Shown one piece after another: positions 4,497-45,785 of a stretch of DNA of 47,001 nucleotides. The notes beneath the pieces were generated by a model that did not search any database, was not told where the DNA came from, and was given only the letters and a program-made list of their open reading frames with translations. Position numbers and translations under genes: made by a program. Origin of the DNA: an uncultured Bacilli bacterium (lineage in GTDB: Bacteria; Bacillota_I; Bacilli_A; RF39; UBA660). Location: positions 1-47,001 of the forward strand of contig CALWAK010000004.1 in the NCBI GenBank assembly GCA_944373095.1, read 5' to 3'. Positions within the stretch are counted from its first letter, which is position 1. The number at the start of each line of letters is the position of its first letter.

Positions 4497-4751
4497 ATGA
4501 GAGAAAAAATATTTAATTTAGAAAATGGAAATTCATATTATGCGTTAGAAAGTATAAAATCTGATAAAGGTTATTATGTACTTGCAGCTCCTTGTGATTT
4601 AGAAAAAGATGATATGGATATTGAAAATTTAATTGTTTGTGAAGTCACTCTAAATGGTGAAGATGTTGTTACAAAAAGAATTGAAGATGAAAATTTAGCA
4701 ACTAGAATTAGTGCTGAATTAATTCAAAAGTTTCGTAGAAATAATCAATAA
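4497..4751 (+). CDS. Small uncharacterised protein, DUF1292-like
   Basis: An 84-residue acidic protein, third gene of the unit, starting 14 bases after the 885-residue gene with an AGGAG site. The layout is an N-terminal strand FNLENGNSYYALE, then GYYVLAAPCDL, a central strand pair around VCEVTLNGED, and a C-terminal helix LATRISAELIQKF. This is the same order of elements as the proteins at 1571 and 38429. It has no membrane segment and no catalytic motif. It is probably a small partner or regulator made with its large neighbour, which is inferred from context only. Confidence 0.7.
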   Translation: MREKIFNLENGNSYYALESIKSDKGYYVLAAPCDLEKDDMDIENLIVCEVTLNGEDVVTKRIEDENLATRISAELIQKFRRNNQ

Positions 4752-4775
4752 AGGCTAGTTAAATAGTCTTTTTTT
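4750..4775 (+). terminator. Terminator of the coiled-coil unit
   Basis: GGCTA and TAGTC (one G-T pair) form a short stem flanked by AAA on the left and seven T on the right. Confidence 0.7.
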
Positions 4776-4832
4776 GACAAATAAGTATTATTTAAAAAAA
4801 ATTGTTAATTATTTTAATAAGTGAGGTATTTT

Positions 4833-6788
4833 ATGTTTGAATTAGTATCAAAATTTAAACCAAGTGGCGATCAGCCTCAAGCAATCGAAAAATTAGTAGA
4901 AGGTATTAAAGAAGGAAAAAAAGAACAAGTTTTATTAGGCGCTACTGGTACTGGTAAGACTTTTACTATTGCTAATGTTATAAAAGAAGTTAATAAACCA
5001 ACATTAGTATTAGCTCATAACAAAACTTTAGCAGGACAATTATATTCTGAATTTAAAGAGTTATTTCCTAACAATCATGTTGAGTACTTTGTATCTTATT
5101 ATGATTATTATCAACCAGAAGCATATGTTCCAAGTAGTGATACTTATATTGAAAAAGATAGTAGTATTAATGATGAAATAGATGAGTTAAGACATGGTGC
5201 CACATCGAATTTAATTAATAATCGTGATGTTATAGTAGTAGCATCAGTTTCCTGTATTTATGGTATAGGTAATAAAGAAGATTATGTTAATTCAATGTTA
5301 ATTTTAAGCGTTGGTCAAAAAATTGATCGTAGTTCAATTATAAATCATTTATATGATATGACTTATGAACGAAATGATATGGATTTTCACCGTGGAACTT
5401 TTAGGGTAAGAGGAGATGTAATTGATATAATTCCTGCTTCTGAAAAGTCTCATGGTATTAGAATAGAGTTATTTGGTGATGAAGTTGATCAAATATCATT
5501 ATTTGATCCATTATCTGGGATAGTGGAAAAACAAGTAAAAAATATATCTATATTTCCAGCAAGTCACTTTGTAACTGCTCCTGAAAAACTTGAAGAAGCA
5601 ATAAATCGTATAAAAAAAGAATTGAATGAAAGATTAGAATATTTTAAAGAAAACAATAAGTTTATTGAAGAACAAAGATTAAGGGAACGAGTAAACTATG
5701 ATATTGAAATGTTAAAAGAAACTGGTTTTTGTAGTGGTGTAGAAAACTATTCTAGACATCTAGCCCTTCGTGGAGAGGGAGAAACACCCTCAACTTTAAT
5801 GGATTTCTTTCCGGATGATTATTTACTTGTTGTTGATGAATCACATGTTACTTTACCACAAGTAAGAGGAATGTATAATGGAGATAGAATGCGTAAACAA
5901 ACATTAGTAGATTATGGTTTTCGTTTACCTAGTGCTTTAGATAATAGACCTTTAAAATATGATGAATTTGAATCTAAAATAAATCAGGTAATCTACATTT
6001 CAGCTACTCCTGGAGATTTAGAACTAGAACATACTAATAATCAATATGTTGAACAAATTATAAGGCCAACTGGACTACTCGATCCTACTATTGAAGTACG
6101 TAAAACGGAAGGTCAAATTGATGATATAATTGCCGAGATAAATTTACGTAAAGAAAAAAATGAAAGAGTATTAATAACTACTTTAACTATAAGAATGGCA
6201 GAAGAACTTACAAATTATTTAAAAGAAGTAGGTATTAAGGTTGCTTATTTACATAGTGAGATTAAAACTTTAGAAAGACTTAAGATTATTCATGATTTAA
6301 GATGTGGTATTTATGATGTAGTAGTTGGTATTAACTTATTAAGAGAGGGAATAGATATTCCAGAAGTTAGTCTAATATGTATAATGGATGCTAATAAACA
6401 AGGGTTCTTAAGAAGTACTAGAAGTTTAATTCAAACTGTTGGTAGATGTGCTAGAAATGCTAATGGACATGTTATAATGTATGCAGATTCAATTAGTGAA
6501 GCTATGGAAGAGACTATTAAAGAAACTAAAAGAAGACGTGAAATTCAAAATGCGTATAATGTTAAGAATAATATAGTACCTAAAACAATAATAAAAGAAA
6601 TAAGAGAAGTTATAACTAATGAAGTTGTAGATAGTAATAAGAATAAAAAACAAAATAAAATGACTAAGAAGGAAAAGGAATTAATGATTTTAAATCTAGA
6701 AACGCAAATGAATGAAGCTGCTAAAAATTTAGATTTTGAACGAGCAATGGAATTAAGAGATATTTTATTTGAGTTAAAAAGTAATTAA
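4833..6788 (+). CDS. uvrB: Excinuclease ABC subunit B
   Basis: DNA-damage recognition helicase of nucleotide excision repair; it takes DNA from UvrA and recruits UvrC. The protein is 651 residues, normal for the family. Visible are Walker A GATGTGKT (about residues 34-41), the beta-hairpin region [20 protein letters not shown], the DESH box (VVDESHVT), helicase motifs YISATPG and QTVGRCARN, and a C-terminal UVR domain ([22 protein letters not shown]) that binds UvrC. ATG 4833 is preferred over the in-frame GTG at 4821 because that GTG is part of the GTGAGG ribosome site. uvrA is not next to it, unlike in many Bacilli; an unrelated glycosyltransferase follows after a terminator. Confidence 0.98.
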
Positions 6789-6812
6789 GAATTCAACTAG
6801 GAATTCTTTTTT
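6787..6812 (+). terminator. Terminator of uvrB
   Basis: Perfect 8-base stem AAGAATTC / GAATTCTT with a 6-base loop and a T run. It begins at the last bases of the uvrB stop codon. Confidence 0.88.
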
Positions 6813-6836
6813 CATATACTTATACTAGGTGATTTA

Positions 6837-8150
6837 ATGAGAAATACTTCAATTATTATTGTTACTTATAATAACTTAGAGTATACCAAAAAATGTATAG
6901 AAAGTATAAAGAGATATACTACTAATAACACTTATGAAATTATAATAGTTGATAATTATTCAAGTGATGATACTTATAAATGGTTATTAAAACAAAAAAA
7001 TATCCGATTAATTTTAAATAAAGAAAATCTAGGATATCCAATAGCATGTAATCAAGGAATAAAAATAGCTAATAAAGATAACGATATTTTATTATTAAAT
7101 AATGATACTATTGTAACTAAAAATTGGCTTAATAATTTAAAACAATGTTTATATAGTAATAAATTAATTGGAGTAGTTGGCAGTGTATCAAATAATAATG
7201 AAAATATACAAGGTGTACATTTTACATATGATAATTTTAAAGAAATGCAAAAATTAGCTAAAATAAATAATATTTCTAATAAAGAAATGTGGGAAGAGAA
7301 AGTATTTTTAATTGGTTATTGTATTTTAATAAAAAGAGAGTGTTTTAATAAAGTTGGATATTTAGATGAAAATTATACTCCTGGTTATGTAGATGATAAT
7401 GATTACTCTATAAGAGTTGCCCAAGCTGGGTATAAACAATATTTATGTCACGATTCTTTTATCCATCATTATCTAGGTTCTGCTTTTCGAAAAGATTGGG
7501 ATAAATTTTATAAAATTTTAGATAAAAATAGAAATTATTTTTATAATAAATTTAAGTTTAAAACAGAATTATTTGATACTTTAGATACTTATTCATATCC
7601 CTTTTTAACAAATAATTCAAGTATATTAATTATTAATTGTAACATAGGAGTATCAGCTTTAAGAATAAAATATTTATATAAATCAAAAGTAACTGGTGTA
7701 GAAGAAGATTATTATAAAAGAAAAATAGCTGGTAAGTTTATAAAAGTATATTCTAAATTATCTAAAATAAAAAATAAGAAATATGATTATATCTTAATTA
7801 ATAATATATTAGAATTTACTGAGTATCCTATTGAGTATTTAAAAACATTAAAAAAGTATTTAACAAAAAATGGTAAAATAATTGGCCAATTTGAAAATAT
7901 TAATAGTATTGATCATATATATAATTTATTAAATGATAATTGGTATTTTAATCATTCTAAAACTAATTACTATACAAGAAAGGATTTTGAAAAAATTGCA
8001 AATTTAGCAGGATATTCTATAAACATATATTCTTGGTATAAAACTTTAAATGATTATGAACAAGAACTTGTGGATAAGTTAAAAGTTATCAACAGCTTTA
8101 ACTATCAATATATTAGTTATTCTTATTCTTTACAATTAGTAGACAAATAA
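6837..8150 (+). CDS. Family 2 glycosyltransferase fused to a methyltransferase-like domain
   Basis: A 437-residue two-domain protein. Residues 1-225 form a GT-A fold family 2 glycosyltransferase: SIIIVTYNN at the N-terminus, the IIVDNYSSDDT nucleotide-binding strand, LLLNNDT in place of a DxD metal motif, and GYVDDNDYSIRVAQAGY as the acceptor-side block. Residues about 258-400 resemble a class I SAM-dependent methyltransferase: the strand ILIINCNIGVSALRIKYL is a weak motif I, followed by YDYILINNILEFTEYP and a GKIIGQFEN strand. The glycine-rich loop of motif I is poor, so this half may bind but not methylate. It probably acts on cell-surface glycans. No signal peptide. It is a single gene with AGGTGA as ribosome site. 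Confidence 0.88.
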   Translation: MRNTSIIIVTYNNLEYTKKCIESIKRYTTNNTYEIIIVDNYSSDDTYKWLLKQKNIRLILNKENLGYPIACNQGIKIANKDNDILLLNNDTIVTKNWLNNLKQCLYSNKLIGVVGSVSNNNENIQGVHFTYDNFKEMQKLAKINNISNKEMWEEKVFLIGYCILIKRECFNKVGYLDENYTPGYVDDNDYSIRVAQAGYKQYLCHDSFIHHYLGSAFRKDWDKFYKILDKNRNYFYNKFKFKTELFDTLDTYSYPFLTNNSSILIINCNIGVSALRIKYLYKSKVTGVEEDYYKRKIAGKFIKVYSKLSKIKNKKYDYILINNILEFTEYPIEYLKTLKKYLTKNGKIIGQFENINSIDHIYNLLNDNWYFNHSKTNYYTRKDFEKIANLAGYSINIYSWYKTLNDYEQELVDKLKVINSFNYQYISYSYSLQLVDK

Positions 8151-8168
8151 AAAAGTACTAAAAGTACT
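8147..8168 (-). terminator. Terminator of the minus-strand carboxypeptidase gene
   Basis: AGTACT-AAA-AGTACT stem (8154-8168). Read on the minus strand it is followed by six T. It lies between convergent genes and abuts the stop codon of the plus-strand glycosyltransferase gene. Confidence 0.65.
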
Positions 8169-8200
8169 CTTAAAATATAAATTAAATTTGTAAATAAATA

Positions 8201-9160
8201 TTATTCTTCTATATAATAAGCGTAATATTCATCATATGTAATACCCTCATTATATACTTTAGTAGCTAAATCTATACCAAGATATCTAAAATGCCATGGC
8301 TCATATGAATAACCTGTAATTTCTTCTTTACCTTCAGGATATCTTAAGATAAAACCATATTTATAAGAGTTATTAGCTAACCATTCATATGCAGGAACAT
8401 CCTCATCATCACCCTCATAATTATATTGACCAATATCTAGCGCTAATCCGGTTTGATGTTCTGAATAACCTGCTCTAGCAGCATATGCATCAGCATTTTT
8501 AGTGCCATAAGCATTTCTTCTTGTAGACCAAACTTCATCTTGATCTTCATAACTACGATATGATGAATTTATAATAAGTTGTATATTATCTTTTTTTGCA
8601 TCATTATACATACTTAAAAAGGCATCTATAACTTTTTTAGTAGCAGAATTACCAGCATATGAATAAGATAAACTTATATTAGTTAATTCACTAGCAATAT
8701 AATCTTTATCTAAATAATAATATTTATTAACTAACATCGTATCTATATTTGTTAAATTAGCAGGTTTAGTATTTTCATAGTAATCATAATCTCTATTTAC
8801 ATTTACCATACTAATAACTTCATTTAAATCTTTCTTATTATCTTCATAGTATAAAATATATCTATCTAAATTTTTAAATAAAAAATACTTTTCATTAATT
8901 AATTTAGGTATTAACTCTTTATACTCAATATTTAATAAATTATCTATCTCATTATTTTCTAACTTATTTAAAATAATATTTATATCTTCATTAGAATAAC
9001 CTTTTGAAAGTAATTTATATTCATAAGTTTCTTCATATTTTTTTTGATCATTAATTTTTTTTAGCCAAGTAAATGATATTATTAAAATAATAACTATAAT
9101 TAATAACAATCTAATTAAAAATTTTACTTTCTTCTTAAGTTTTTTTCTTTTCTTTTTCAA
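8201..9160 (-). CDS. VanY-type D-alanyl-D-alanine carboxypeptidase (peptidase M15B)
   Basis: Membrane-anchored zinc peptidase that trims D-Ala from peptidoglycan stem peptides. A highly basic N-terminus leads into a signal anchor (about residues 12-30, FLIRLLLIIVIILIISF). A poorly conserved linker follows, then the catalytic domain: SSYRSYEDQ, the zinc site EHQTGLALDI (His and Asp) and EPWHFRYLG (catalytic Glu and zinc His). The start is probably TTG 9160, which has AGGTGA five bases upstream, the arrangement used by several genes here. The in-frame GTG at 9169 lies within that ribosome site. It is a single gene facing the glycosyltransferase gene. About 319 residues. Confidence 0.92.
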   Translation of the reverse strand: MKKKRKKLKKKVKFLIRLLLIIVIILIISFTWLKKINDQKKYEETYEYKLLSKGYSNEDINIILNKLENNEIDNLLNIEYKELIPKLINEKYFLFKNLDRYILYYEDNKKDLNEVISMVNVNRDYDYYENTKPANLTNIDTMLVNKYYYLDKDYIASELTNISLSYSYAGNSATKKVIDAFLSMYNDAKKDNIQLIINSSYRSYEDQDEVWSTRRNAYGTKNADAYAARAGYSEHQTGLALDIGQYNYEGDDEDVPAYEWLANNSYKYGFILRYPEGKEEITGYSYEPWHFRYLGIDLATKVYNEGITYDEYYAYYIEE

Positions 9161-38744: not shown

Positions 38745-41042
38745 CTATTTAATATATTCTGAAGGATCTTTAGTCCTAGTATTACCAGTAGGAATCCATC
38801 CTTCTAATTCTTTTTTAGTACTCCATGTGTATGTATAACTTGTAGTTGTATTTGTTTCTAAAGTAGCATCAAAACAAGTTGTTTTTTCTAATACACATGT
38901 ATCTCCGTTTAATATATAATCATCAGGACAAGTATATCCTTTTAAACCACCTTTTTTAATTATTATGCATTTATCATTTTCTAAAACTGCATCTTTGTCT
39001 TCACAATAATATTCAGTTTTACTTTCAACAACTTTACTACATTTATAATTACCATTTTCTTCATATTTAGTATATCCATCCGGACATGTATATTTATATT
39101 CTATTTCTTCTGTTGGCTCTGTAGTTTTATAACAGGTAGTACCTTCTTTAATGTATCCATCTGGACAAATATACTCAGTACTAGTAGTATTTTTAGTGGC
39201 ATCTATGGTTTTAACACACATTTCATTTTCTAAGTAATATCCTTCACTAGTATTACAATAAGGAATAACTTTATCATCAATAATTATATCTGCATATATT
39301 GTTTTAGTACATTTATGATTGTTAAGAATATATCCACTTTCACAATATTCTTTACTACTAGAATTATACCTATAATTTGCTGAATATGAACAACTACTTC
39401 CTAAAAGAATTCCTTGCCTAGAACAACTGTAGTATCCATTAGTAGTTGAACATGTCGCATTATATGTAGTTGTTCTATAACATTTATTATTTACTGGTGT
39501 AGAACCATCTGAACAGGTATAATATCCGCCAGTACTTGAACATGTTGGATTCTTATAAATATAACATGTTGTACCACTCAAACTGCCACCTTTATTACAA
39601 ATATAAGATGATTCCCATTTATATAGATTATAATAATAAACACAAGAACCTAAAGAACAAGAATAATTTCCAGTATATTCTAATTTTTCTTTTCCATTGT
39701 TATATTCTGCTCTTAAAGTATTAGATTTTATAACGGTAGGATTTCCCCAGTGTGAATTATTAGTGGCAGTATAAGAATATACACATTGAGAATTTGATAG
39801 TCTATACCCATCTGGACAAGAGCAATTTTGAGATCCGCTTACATAATTAGCATTATACTCTTCTTTTTTGTAACACGTATTACCTATTTTTTCATCACCT
39901 ATATTACAGGTACAATTTGTACCTCCAGAATGGTATGTAGCATCATAGAAGCAACTAGTTCCAACTAACCTATCACTAGAATAATTGCAATAGTATTCTT
40001 TACTTGTTTCTGAACTTATTAACGCATTTTTAGTTATTGTACATTTATCTCCATTAAGAGTATATCCATCCGGACAAACATAGTCATCTTTACTAACTAG
40101 TTTATAATCTGGTTCAACTTTTTTTATACACTTTGTACCTTTTACACTATAACCAGCAGGGCATTCATAAATAGTTGTGCCAGGTTTAACTGTTGCCTCT
40201 TCATATTTATAACAAATATTATTATTTAAAGTATATCCATCCGGACATTTCTTTACTACTTTATCCTTTTCTTTTATAGGATCAGCATATTCTGTATAAG
40301 AACCAGTAACATTTTTTTCTGCATCCTTAATTATTTTTGTGTCATCAAAATATAATGGCGTTGCTGGAATTGTTTTGCCCCTTTCATATTTATAGCATGT
40401 CTTTCCATTTAATACATATCCACTAGGACAAGTATAATTATTTGTAGTAGTATAAACAGGTTTTTTAAATTCATATTCTATGATACTAATTAAATTACCA
40501 TCTTTATCATAAATACCATTTTCTAATATAATATCTTCCTCATCATCATCTTCATTATTTATAGAATTATTGTTATTATTTGTATTAGAATTACCAGTAT
40601 TATTATTTAAATCATCTTGTTTATTTATAGTATTACTTATAGTTTCTAAAATATAATCCGAATCATTATTACAAGATAATTGAGTTTTTAAGACATATTC
40701 ATCAGAACCTGTTTTAGTAATAGTTGAATAAGAACTAGTTTCATTGCATTTTTCATTATTCTTATCAACAAATTCTATGATTAAATTCTTATTAATCATA
40801 TCACTTAATTTAATAGTTTCAGATTCACCAATGTTTTCTGGTAAATTATTATTCGAAAAATAATTTTTGGCAACTTCTTTCATATTATTTATATTTTCAC
40901 TAAATACTCTATTATAAAATGTATCTAATTTCGGCATTGGAATAGCCCAGGCTAATAAAACAATAGATAATATAATTAATGTTAATTTTATTAATATATT
41001 TTTCCAATCTAGTCTAATTTTAAAATTATTGTTATTATACAT
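38745..41042 (-). CDS. Membrane-anchored protein with about 17 cysteine-pair repeats
   Basis: A 765-residue surface protein, last gene of a minus-strand operon. Signal anchor at residues about 15-34. Residues 40-130 form a non-repeated domain with two Cys (NNEKCNETSSYSTITKT and LKTQLSCNND). After an Asn/Asp linker, residues about 195-720 hold roughly 17 units of the form CPxGYxLxGxxCy (for example CPDGYTLNGDKC, CPAGYSVKGTKC, CESGYILNNHKC), each with two Cys about 11 residues apart and joined by variable Thr/Lys-rich linkers. The C-terminus has no LPXTG. ATG 41042 is used because AGGAGGG precedes it; an in-frame ATG at 41096 overlaps the upstream gene. The repeats suggest disulfide-bonded extracellular rods. 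Adhesion is a guess. Confidence 0.82.
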   Translation of the reverse strand: MYNNNNFKIRLDWKNILIKLTLIILSIVLLAWAIPMPKLDTFYNRVFSENINNMKEVAKNYFSNNNLPENIGESETIKLSDMINKNLIIEFVDKNNEKCNETSSYSTITKTGSDEYVLKTQLSCNNDSDYILETISNTINKQDDLNNNTGNSNTNNNNNSINNEDDDEEDIILENGIYDKDGNLISIIEYEFKKPVYTTTNNYTCPSGYVLNGKTCYKYERGKTIPATPLYFDDTKIIKDAEKNVTGSYTEYADPIKEKDKVVKKCPDGYTLNNNICYKYEEATVKPGTTIYECPAGYSVKGTKCIKKVEPDYKLVSKDDYVCPDGYTLNGDKCTITKNALISSETSKEYYCNYSSDRLVGTSCFYDATYHSGGTNCTCNIGDEKIGNTCYKKEEYNANYVSGSQNCSCPDGYRLSNSQCVYSYTATNNSHWGNPTVIKSNTLRAEYNNGKEKLEYTGNYSCSLGSCVYYYNLYKWESSYICNKGGSLSGTTCYIYKNPTCSSTGGYYTCSDGSTPVNNKCYRTTTYNATCSTTNGYYSCSRQGILLGSSCSYSANYRYNSSSKEYCESGYILNNHKCTKTIYADIIIDDKVIPYCNTSEGYYLENEMCVKTIDATKNTTSTEYICPDGYIKEGTTCYKTTEPTEEIEYKYTCPDGYTKYEENGNYKCSKVVESKTEYYCEDKDAVLENDKCIIIKKGGLKGYTCPDDYILNGDTCVLEKTTCFDATLETNTTTSYTYTWSTKKELEGWIPTGNTRTKDPSEYIK

Positions 41043-41053
41043 TAACAACCCTC

Positions 41054-41962
41054 CTAATAACTTCTCTTTAAAATATAGTTTTGATAAGTTAAGCATTGTT
41101 CATTTATTAAATCAATTAAAACTTCATGAAAATCATTGCTGTCAATTAAATTGCCAAATTCATCATATACTTTATGTCCTCTTATAAATTGATCTATTCC
41201 AGCTGGACATGAAAAACTTAGATTTCCATTAATATTTAAAGTATTATTTTTTTGATTTTTAATAGCAGATTTTACATTTCCACAATTTTTATAATTTATA
41301 TATTGCGTCATTAATAAATAAATATAAGGTGCATTAATTTTATTTACTTTAATAGCACTTCTTCCATCCCATAAGTTAATTCCTAACCAAGTAAAATATT
41401 TATTTGCAATTGTATAATCATTACCATTAGAATTTTTTAAATCATATACTAAATTTTCTGCTTCGCTTAATTTATCGTAGTAATATGTTTTATCATAAAA
41501 CATTAAACTTAAAAAGGGCTTTATATCATACTTAATACAAGATTCAAAGTAAGAATTTAATATATTTTCATATTCTTCAATAGAAGTTATATTTGTATCA
41601 TCGCTTTGATTAATATACATATCATCAAATTTTATAATAAAATTATATAAATTTTTAACATCTTCTATAGTATTTAATTTATTTACAAAATCATTACCAT
41701 ATAAATTTTTATAGTATAAAAGATTTTGATAAAATTGTTCTACATAAGTATAATCTATGATATTATCTGGTTCTACATATACTATTGAATTAGAGTTACT
41801 TTCAGATATATTACCTTTATTAAATAAGTTCGTAATAATTTTTTTAGAATTAATAATAATTATAACTACTAAAACAGTAGCAGTAACTGATTTTAATACA
41901 ATAGAAGCTTTATTACTAACTTCTTTATTTTCTTCATCGTAATCTATATCTTCTACCTTCAT
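41054..41962 (-). CDS. Uncharacterised single-span membrane protein
   Basis: A 302-residue protein with a short acidic N-terminus, one membrane span (about residues 20-38) and a 260-residue outer domain, so probably N-in. The outer part is helical and Tyr/Asn-rich. It has a Cys-containing stretch (LSFSCPAGIDQFIRGHK) and a further Cys near the C-terminus. The first part of that stretch loosely recalls the CPAG start of the repeats in the next gene. Eleven bases separate it from the Cys-repeat gene, and seven from the J-like gene before it. Not recognised as a known family. Confidence 0.75.
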   Translation of the reverse strand: MKVEDIDYDEENKEVSNKASIVLKSVTATVLVVIIIINSKKIITNLFNKGNISESNSNSIVYVEPDNIIDYTYVEQFYQNLLYYKNLYGNDFVNKLNTIEDVKNLYNFIIKFDDMYINQSDDTNITSIEEYENILNSYFESCIKYDIKPFLSLMFYDKTYYYDKLSEAENLVYDLKNSNGNDYTIANKYFTWLGINLWDGRSAIKVNKINAPYIYLLMTQYINYKNCGNVKSAIKNQKNNTLNINGNLSFSCPAGIDQFIRGHKVYDEFGNLIDSNDFHEVLIDLINEQCLTYQNYILKRSY

Positions 41963-41969
41963 ATTAACC

Positions 41970-43046
41970 TCATCTTTTTAATACTAATCCTTTATTTTTA
42001 TCTTCAAGTTTAGCGTTTTGTAGGATACTAATAAATATACTATCATCATTTATTTTATTAAATATTTCTTTACATTCAGTAACTTTTGTAGTATCAAGAT
42101 TAGATTTATCAAAAGCTATGTCTCGCATTCCATAATTATTAATATCAGATATCATATACTTACATATAACTCTTAAGACTATTACCTCAGCATAATTATT
42201 ACTGTTCATATTATCTAATGCCTGCTTTATAGTCATGTAAGCATCATATTCATCATAATAAGAGGTATTTTCTGAATCCATCATTGCAATTTTAGATCCT
42301 AAAGAATTAACATTTTCATAACATGTTAACCCTTTAAATAAATTTGTAATATCATAATGTGAACCAACAAGTTCAAATAATCTAGCACTAGCATCTTCAT
42401 TAGATAGTGTATATTCACCAGTATAATTTGGATCTGAATGGTGAGCCCATCTAATTAATTCATATACAACATCCTCATTATATACAGTTGGAGCAAATTT
42501 AGGATTATAATTTTTAATTTTAGCAATTTTTTCCCATTCAATGGTAGCTAAATTTTTCATAAAAGCATCATCATTTATTCTAGAGTCAATTATTATAATA
42601 TTAGTATTTTCTTGATTTTCATTTAGTTCTTCATTAGTTACTATACTACTAGAAGAATTATTTTCTTTAGAAGTATCTACGCCTTTTAAAGTATAAACTC
42701 CCATTACGCTTATTAATGCTCCAATACTTAAGCCAGCTAATATTTTATTACCAACATCTACAGTTTTTTTGGGTGCTTCTTCTTGATGTGTTACTTTAAC
42801 TGGACTACTACTTTTAACTGAACTACTATTTTTATGTTTATCTCTTTTTTTAAGTTCTATATACTTAAACATAATATCTCTTGCATTTCTCATATTTGCC
42901 AATTTATCATAATCTTGTGATGTATGCATTTCTTTTTTATCCCAATTCATATACCATATAGTATAAGCACGATCTATTTCTTTTTTACTAGCTTCTACAG
43001 GTACACCTAATAAATTTGCTTGTTTCATTATATATTCTTTGTTCAT
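41970..43046 (-). CDS. Membrane protein with degenerate N-terminal J-like domain
   Basis: A 358-residue protein, first gene of the minus-strand operon. Residues 5-65 follow the helical layout of a DnaJ J domain (ANLLGVPVEASKKEIDRAY, then YDKLANMRNARDIMFKYI), but the HPD tripeptide that activates DnaK is missing (KKEMHTS in its place), so it cannot stimulate Hsp70 in the usual way. A polar linker leads to one membrane span (about 102-120, LAGLSIGALISVMGVYTL) and a 230-residue outer domain with few Cys. GGAGG lies upstream of ATG 43046. Promoter at 43077-43105. It is probably part of one membrane complex with the two genes behind it. Confidence 0.75.
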   Translation of the reverse strand: MNKEYIMKQANLLGVPVEASKKEIDRAYTIWYMNWDKKEMHTSQDYDKLANMRNARDIMFKYIELKKRDKHKNSSSVKSSSPVKVTHQEEAPKKTVDVGNKILAGLSIGALISVMGVYTLKGVDTSKENNSSSSIVTNEELNENQENTNIIIIDSRINDDAFMKNLATIEWEKIAKIKNYNPKFAPTVYNEDVVYELIRWAHHSDPNYTGEYTLSNEDASARLFELVGSHYDITNLFKGLTCYENVNSLGSKIAMMDSENTSYYDEYDAYMTIKQALDNMNSNNYAEVIVLRVICKYMISDINNYGMRDIAFDKSNLDTTKVTECKEIFNKINDDSIFISILQNAKLEDKNKGLVLKR

Positions 43047-43076: not shown

Positions 43077-43105
43077 ATGGTAACACAATGATACTTAAAA
43101 GTCAA
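43077..43105 (-). promoter_or_regulatory. Promoter of the Cys-repeat operon
   Basis: On the minus strand: TTGACT, a 17-base spacer, TACCAT with TGT just before it. It is divergent from, and only about 30 bases away from, the -10 of tmRNA. Confidence 0.6.
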
Positions 43106-45086: not shown

Positions 45087-45785
45087 ATGAATCAAGAAAA
45101 TATTGGTAAAATAATAAAAGAAATAAGAAAGAAGAATAATTTAACGCAAAAAGATTTAGCCGATAAATATAATGTTACATATCAAGCAGTAAGTAAATGG
45201 GAAAATGGTAAGAATTTACCTGATATAATGCTGATTAAACAAATGAGTAAAGATTTTAATTTTAGTCTAGATGAATTTTTTGAAACAAATGAGAAAAAAA
45301 ATAATAAATCAAAAAAAATAATTTATATAGTTATTGGGTGTATAGTTACTTTTTTAATAATTTTTTTAGTAATATTTTTTTATATAAATAAAGATACAGA
45401 CTTTGATTTCAAAACATTATCTAGTACTTGTTCAGACTTTAATATATCTGGTAATATAGCTTACAATAGTAATAAGTCTGCTATATATATAACTAATATT
45501 CAATATTGTGGTGGAACTGATAATGAAGAATATGATAAAATTGAATGTATTTTATATGAGTCAGAAAATAATATAGATAAACTAATTAGTTCTTATAATT
45601 ATGCTGGAGAAGAAAAAATAAAATTAGAAGACTTTTTACAACAAGTTACTTTTGCTATTGATAATTATAAAAACACTTGTGAAGATTATCATAATCATAA
45701 TTTATACTTATCTATAATAGCAACTTTAGATAACAAAGAAATTAGATATAAAATTCCACTTACTATGGTAGATAATTGTTCATAA
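45087..45785 (+). CDS. XRE-family regulator with membrane span and outer domain
   Basis: A 232-residue protein. Residues 5-62 form a Cro/C1-type helix-turn-helix (IGKIIKEIRKKNNLTQKDLA, then VSKWENGKNLPDI), a lysine-rich linker, one membrane span (about 78-100) and a 130-residue outer domain with several Cys (STCSDFN, QYCGG, IECILY, NTCEDY, VDNCS), probably disulfide-bonded. This topology allows an outside signal to reach DNA in a single protein. GTTAGGAAG precedes ATG. No regulator-target pair is evident, but the frameshifted gene at 45825 follows 40 bases later and may be its target or partner. Confidence 0.88.
   Translation: MNQENIGKIIKEIRKKNNLTQKDLADKYNVTYQAVSKWENGKNLPDIMLIKQMSKDFNFSLDEFFETNEKKNNKSKKIIYIVIGCIVTFLIIFLVIFFYINKDTDFDFKTLSSTCSDFNISGNIAYNSNKSAIYITNIQYCGGTDNEEYDKIECILYESENNIDKLISSYNYAGEEKIKLEDFLQQVTFAIDNYKNTCEDYHNHNLYLSIIATLDNKEIRYKIPLTMVDNCS

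Follow-up and report, generated by a model that had tools for sequence, protein, structure and literature searches.

The window, by which we mean the whole 47,001-nucleotide stretch of DNA that was analysed, lies on contig 4 of a 1.08-Mb assembly that is 90% complete. The host belongs to what we take to be the RF39-type reduced-genome Bacilli. Three minus-strand genes are found between the rplQ/DUF1292 end of the ribosomal operon and a divergent tmRNA gene. The genes and their parts are the following.

41970..43046, minus strand: gene 1, 358 aa; degenerate J-like N-terminal domain without HPD, one transmembrane (TM) span at about residues 102-120 and an outer domain of about 238 aa; orthologues in genomes G001, G002, G123 and G242
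41054..41962, minus strand: gene 2, 302 aa; one TM span at about residues 19-37, an outer part of about 265 aa, 4 Cys, predicted helical; restricted to the clade that holds the trio
38745..41042, minus strand: gene 3, 765 aa; TM span, pilin-like domain, Cys-hairpin repeats and C-terminal cap
40632..41006, minus strand: gene 3 residues 13-137, pilin-like anchor domain; TM helix 13-33, helix 39-63, beta sheet; conserved C99 and C124
38871..40433, minus strand: gene 3 residues 204-724; about 16 two-Cys hairpin units, a W/Y-rich non-repeat module at about 428-480 and a single extra Cys, C723
38745..38874, minus strand: gene 3 C-terminal cap, TSYxYxWSxxxxLEGWxxTGKT, kept among relatives
43077..43105, minus strand: candidate promoter of the operon (TTGACT-17-TACCAT, with TG) in the interval that separates gene 1 from the divergent tmRNA gene; matches of this kind are no more frequent here than expected by chance

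Gene 3 was listed as an open reading frame at 38745-41096 on the minus strand, a start at 41096 that is too early. As nearly all relatives begin with MY[D/E/N/T] and AGGAGG precedes the corresponding ATG, the true start was placed at M19 (41042). With this start the gaps between the genes are 7 and 11 bases, in line with the 7-11 bases of the original prediction, and a Shine-Dalgarno-like sequence stands ahead of each of the three genes. One hydrophobic span was predicted in each product, as had been claimed. The accompanying claim that all three proteins have their N-terminus inside holds for gene 1, with its J-like domain inside, and for gene 3, whose inner flank is basic; the flank charges of gene 2 oppose it (-5 inner, +3 outer) and the orientation of this protein is a guess. 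No family of Pfam, NCBIfam or PHROG scored above its cut-off for gene 1, 2 or 3 and no description of such an operon was found in literature searches. The operon is hence undescribed as far as the searched libraries show, which agrees with the earlier reading; it is built from known parts and is restricted to reduced-genome gut Bacilli.

Conservation of the trio among relatives, proposed earlier as a check, was observed: gene order and tight spacing are kept in five genomes from two genera. A search of 60 genomes returned relatives of gene 3 in 30 of the 37 sampled genomes of the window's own bacterial family and in none of the 23 genomes from 13 other families, and the same limit was obtained with a profile of the gene 3 N-terminal domain. 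A scan of the collection gave 63 loci, partly on identical contigs. Relatives that carry names come from uncultured Bacilli of animal guts and from Ca. Coprovivens excrementavium (Bacilli incertae sedis in NCBI). Nearly all of them share a MYxE start, one TM span, a domain of about 95 residues and a variable, often Cys-rich tail. In the gene 3 tree the trio rows, rows with a J-domain partner alone and locus L087 group together in a supported 16-member clade (97/86), within which the trio is supported at 100/99, and the J-partnered operon is therefore probably of single origin. As trio order and spacing are conserved and equivalents of genes 1 and 3 are paired across the wider clade, comparative evidence suggests that genes 1-3 are likely to form a functional unit.

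The partner in the sister genera (loci L060-L069) has a J domain, one TM span and an outer domain of about 300 residues and is encoded directly upstream of the gene 3 homologue, with no gene 2. At ten loci this partner was found 14-26 bp upstream of the gene 3 homologue; where a contig break truncates the partner gene, as in L067 and L069, whose contigs start within it, the outer part alone is seen. Pfam DnaJ scored over cut-off in partners of this kind (E 2e-9 in L062, E 2.9e-13 in L060), and the L061 partner, which has no DnaJ match itself, aligns with that of L060, which has two. A gene 1 profile matched the sister partners over the J domain and the TM span with E 3e-8, and the gene 1 orthologue in L059 matched PF00226 below cut-off (E 6e-4). 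The protein that had been called J-like is thus a true J-domain relative by sequence. The HPD motif is absent from gene 1, its four orthologues and all partners examined, and for this reason no stimulation of Hsp70 is expected from them. Membrane-spanning J-domain proteins are known, as in the DjlA-like layout, and gene 1 and the sister partners resemble them in the J-domain relation and the single span; they differ in lacking HPD and in holding the J domain inside and a large domain outside. In L087 the partner has a homologous outer domain and the J domain is missing.

Elsewhere in the family a different large single-span protein with a basic inner flank is often encoded 12-27 bp from the gene 3 homologue, and for many members of the gene 3 family no partner is encoded within 30 bp. 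The partners are mostly unrelated in sequence across the family, and profile comparison detected no relation between the outer domains of genes 1 and 2 and those of the sister-genus partners. One common function is accordingly not assured. Convincing relatives of gene 2 are limited to two genera, that of the window and that of G123 and G242, where they always lie between genes 1 and 3, and outside the trio clade no recognisable relative was found. An AF2 model of gene 2 built from two sequences was of low confidence (pLDDT 37) and too poor to give a usable fold, with the outer part predicted to be helical. Genes 1 and 2 were also considered as paralogues, for which profiles gave no support. 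A Cys at the outer end of an internal TM span in a lipobox-like context (IVGC, GVGC, VGGC, LTGC, FTGC, LNSC, SSC) was seen in partners at L062, L086, L101, L037 and L048 and in gene 2 orthologues at L059 and L186; some 35-150 residues precede it, and gene 2 of the window has no such Cys.

The gene 3 family HMM matched GFTxxE prepilins of the same bacterial family with E values down to 9e-18. In order to remove similarity due to the hydrophobic helix, the soluble part alone was aligned with hhalign, the TM span being excluded. The soluble domains of gene 3 and of the prepilins aligned over 82 columns (probability 99.1, E 4e-19) with both conserved Cys in register. The GFTIVEL prepilin of the window's own genome gave a weak profile score (E 7e-4) and was not significant alone in the TM-free alignment. 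In the AF2 model of gene 3 a TM helix (13-33) is followed by a break, a helix (39-63), a beta sheet and then short strands; the model matched 8pfb_C, a subunit of a heteropolymeric type IV pilus, weakly (Z 3.7, 105 aligned, residues 7..136) and below unrelated rows that score higher. The sequence comparisons make it well supported that the TM-proximal domain, which the earlier reading of gene 3 had missed, is pilin-derived. Gene 3 shares with type IV pilins and pseudopilins a soluble domain after a hydrophobic helix, two Cys and the SYVxVxK...Y...LxC pattern. It differs in its MYxE start with a cytosolic segment, in its long Cys-repeat tail and in the cleavage motif: true prepilins encoded in the same genomes carry the class III prepilin signal GFTxxE, whereas it is missing in gene 3 and in the family members aligned with it. 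Gene 3 was not classed as a pilin on account of this absence. The TM proteins in L160 (744-2537) and L162 (1-1683) are likewise not prepilins and join the same pilin-like domain to different tails, and on these grounds the domain appears to have been reused as a fixed anchor beyond the Cys-repeat family. Three near-alike GFTLIE prepilin genes stand in tandem in L188 (233-1856, genome G159).

Gene 3 holds 41 Cys, among which about 16 pairs are spaced by 11-15 residues. The original prediction of about 17 repeats of the form CPxGYxLxGxxC was about right in number, and a close fit to that form is found in just half of the units (8 fit the strict pattern). A loose pattern, C-x-x-[GDN]-[YFGDTS]...C, was fitted by 11 units against a mean of 2.1 and a maximum of 8 in 2000 shuffles. 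Cys makes up 5.4% of gene 3 compared to a mean of 0.65% in the outer part of other single-span proteins of these loci. The number of repeats differs among near relatives (630-924 aa overall) while the W/Y-rich module and the C-terminal cap are kept. No tandem array was found at the DNA level in the window's gene 3. The gene 3 homologue of L087 contains 81-bp DNA tandem repeats (6724-7183 and 7386-7827) and, as these are still visible at the DNA level, a recent expansion of hairpin units there is suggested. In the proteins encoded at L056 of genome G032 (4623-7073 and 7939-8889) a TM span is followed by Cys hairpin repeats in the absence of a pilin-like domain.

The nearest family match of gene 3 was cEGF (PF12662; E 1.9e-5, 24.9 bits, below the curated cut-off of 26.6). 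EGF-like and cEGF repeats are likewise short Cys-rich units, but they have six Cys per unit compared to two in gene 3, and this assignment was rejected. Foldseek with the gene 3 model returned no match at E 0.001 or better, PDB sequence searches gave no useful match, and the top VIA rows (T4 gp25 with Z 5.9, the YadA anchor with Z 5.0) were taken to be due to chance. Structure prediction, proposed earlier for the repeats, gave short strands in AF2 and no convincing fold match in the PDB, and the repeats match no known domain over cut-off.

The number of outer Cys was odd in 71 of the 73 gene 3 family members in which a GCx(2-3)Cx(2-6)C motif follows the pilin domain and even in 9 of the 14 without it. 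Related members are not independent in these counts: at 50% identity they fall into 35 clusters, 26 of them odd and 9 even, and two contigs are counted twice. The remaining 5 motif-less members, whose Cys counts are odd, are exactly the trio genomes, each of which has one extra Cys before the cap, and the rule also held across single-member clusters. As parity tracks the motif or the extra Cys, the simplest reading is that all Cys but one are paired, and the counts fit disulfides with one leftover Cys across the family. The putative disulfide-bonded rod of the original prediction gains from this with regard to Cys pairing. Outer Cys of gene 1 number 3, 1, 1, 2 and 1 in the five trio genomes and the counts vary among partners; a disulfide between genes 1 and 3 is speculation.

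According to PMC12453122, there is a tendency among obligate anaerobes to exclude cysteines from the proteins they export. VKOR, DsbA and Thioredoxin_4 were absent from nearly all sampled genomes of the family. The window's own genome encodes exported, membrane-anchored thioredoxin-fold proteins with CAAC and CVHC at loci L267 (G000:C1) and L268 (G000:C64), orthologues of which are present in both congeners (L269-L272), with CDAC for CAAC in G002. These proteins are candidates that could catalyse extracytoplasmic disulfide formation in gene 3.

Taken together, we propose that genes 1-3 are a single operon that encodes a membrane complex at the cell surface: a membrane-anchored, disulfide-stapled stalk with one or more inner-facing partners, used for attachment. 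We put the chance that this proposal is right at about even. The first outer domain of gene 3 would have been taken from a type IV pilin and, without a cleavage signal, would stay in the membrane as an anchor. The stalk would be a long run of two-cysteine beta-hairpins, each with one disulfide staple, ending in the conserved cap, and its length would differ between species by gain or loss of hairpins. Gene 1 would adjoin gene 3 in the membrane, its inner J-like domain, from which no Hsp70 switching is expected, probably serving as a docking module and its outer domain possibly touching gene 3. Gene 2 would be a second membrane partner confined to this clade. Our reasoned guess at the most likely role is that these gut bacteria with reduced genomes use the complex to attach to host material or to other cells, and the J-like domain may link this attachment to the cell interior. 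The J-family protein TopJ is tied to the adhesion complex (attachment organelle) of the reduced-genome bacterium Mycoplasma pneumoniae; its likeness to gene 1 is an analogy only. A bolder, family-wide form of the proposal, which we consider improbable, is an appendage in which the leftover Cys of a variable-length rod on an unprocessed pilin-derived anchor covalently cross-links a fast-changing membrane partner, here J-like, in gut bacteria whose exported proteins are otherwise kept free of Cys.

The homology of the gene 3 domain to prepilins also fits a role as accessory to type IV filaments, with gene 3 as a static receptor or docking protein for true pili in competence or twitching and the J-like partner guiding assembly at the inner face. 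Both congeners and most genomes of the family encode a prepilin peptidase, and the GFTIVEL prepilin is present in the window's genome. Gene 3 nevertheless lacks the cleavage motif, its loci are not next to pilus machinery genes and no prepilin peptidase match was found in the window's own 90%-complete assembly, which leaves this reading with perhaps one chance in five.

A transmembrane sensor is less probable again. Its outer domains would bind a ligand and its J-like cytosolic domain relay the signal, with gene 3 as a ligand-presenting or mechanosensing arm; the partners do mix varied cytosolic N-terminal modules, one TM span and varied outer domains in a receptor-like manner, but no enzymatic or DNA-binding output domain was found in the partners scanned and HPD is absent. 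The near universality of the gene 3 family in its bacterial family and the setting of the locus among housekeeping genes could instead point to a complex for maintenance of the envelope, serving wall or membrane housekeeping rather than outward interaction. Hairpin number and partners change fast, however, more in the manner of surface-facing parts, and we hold this reading to be quite unlikely. The stalk proposed above would provide a concrete, conserved candidate for the means by which uncultured gut Bacilli with reduced genomes keep hold of their surroundings, and an example of a pilin domain put to new use as a fixed anchor. It also raises the question of how about 20 disulfides are formed in one protein in bacteria without DsbA or VKOR.

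Also in the window, 45087-45785 encodes an HTH_3 regulator of the membrane-bound Xre type, with a predicted TM span and an outer part at its C-terminus; two further uncharacterised genes lie nearby.
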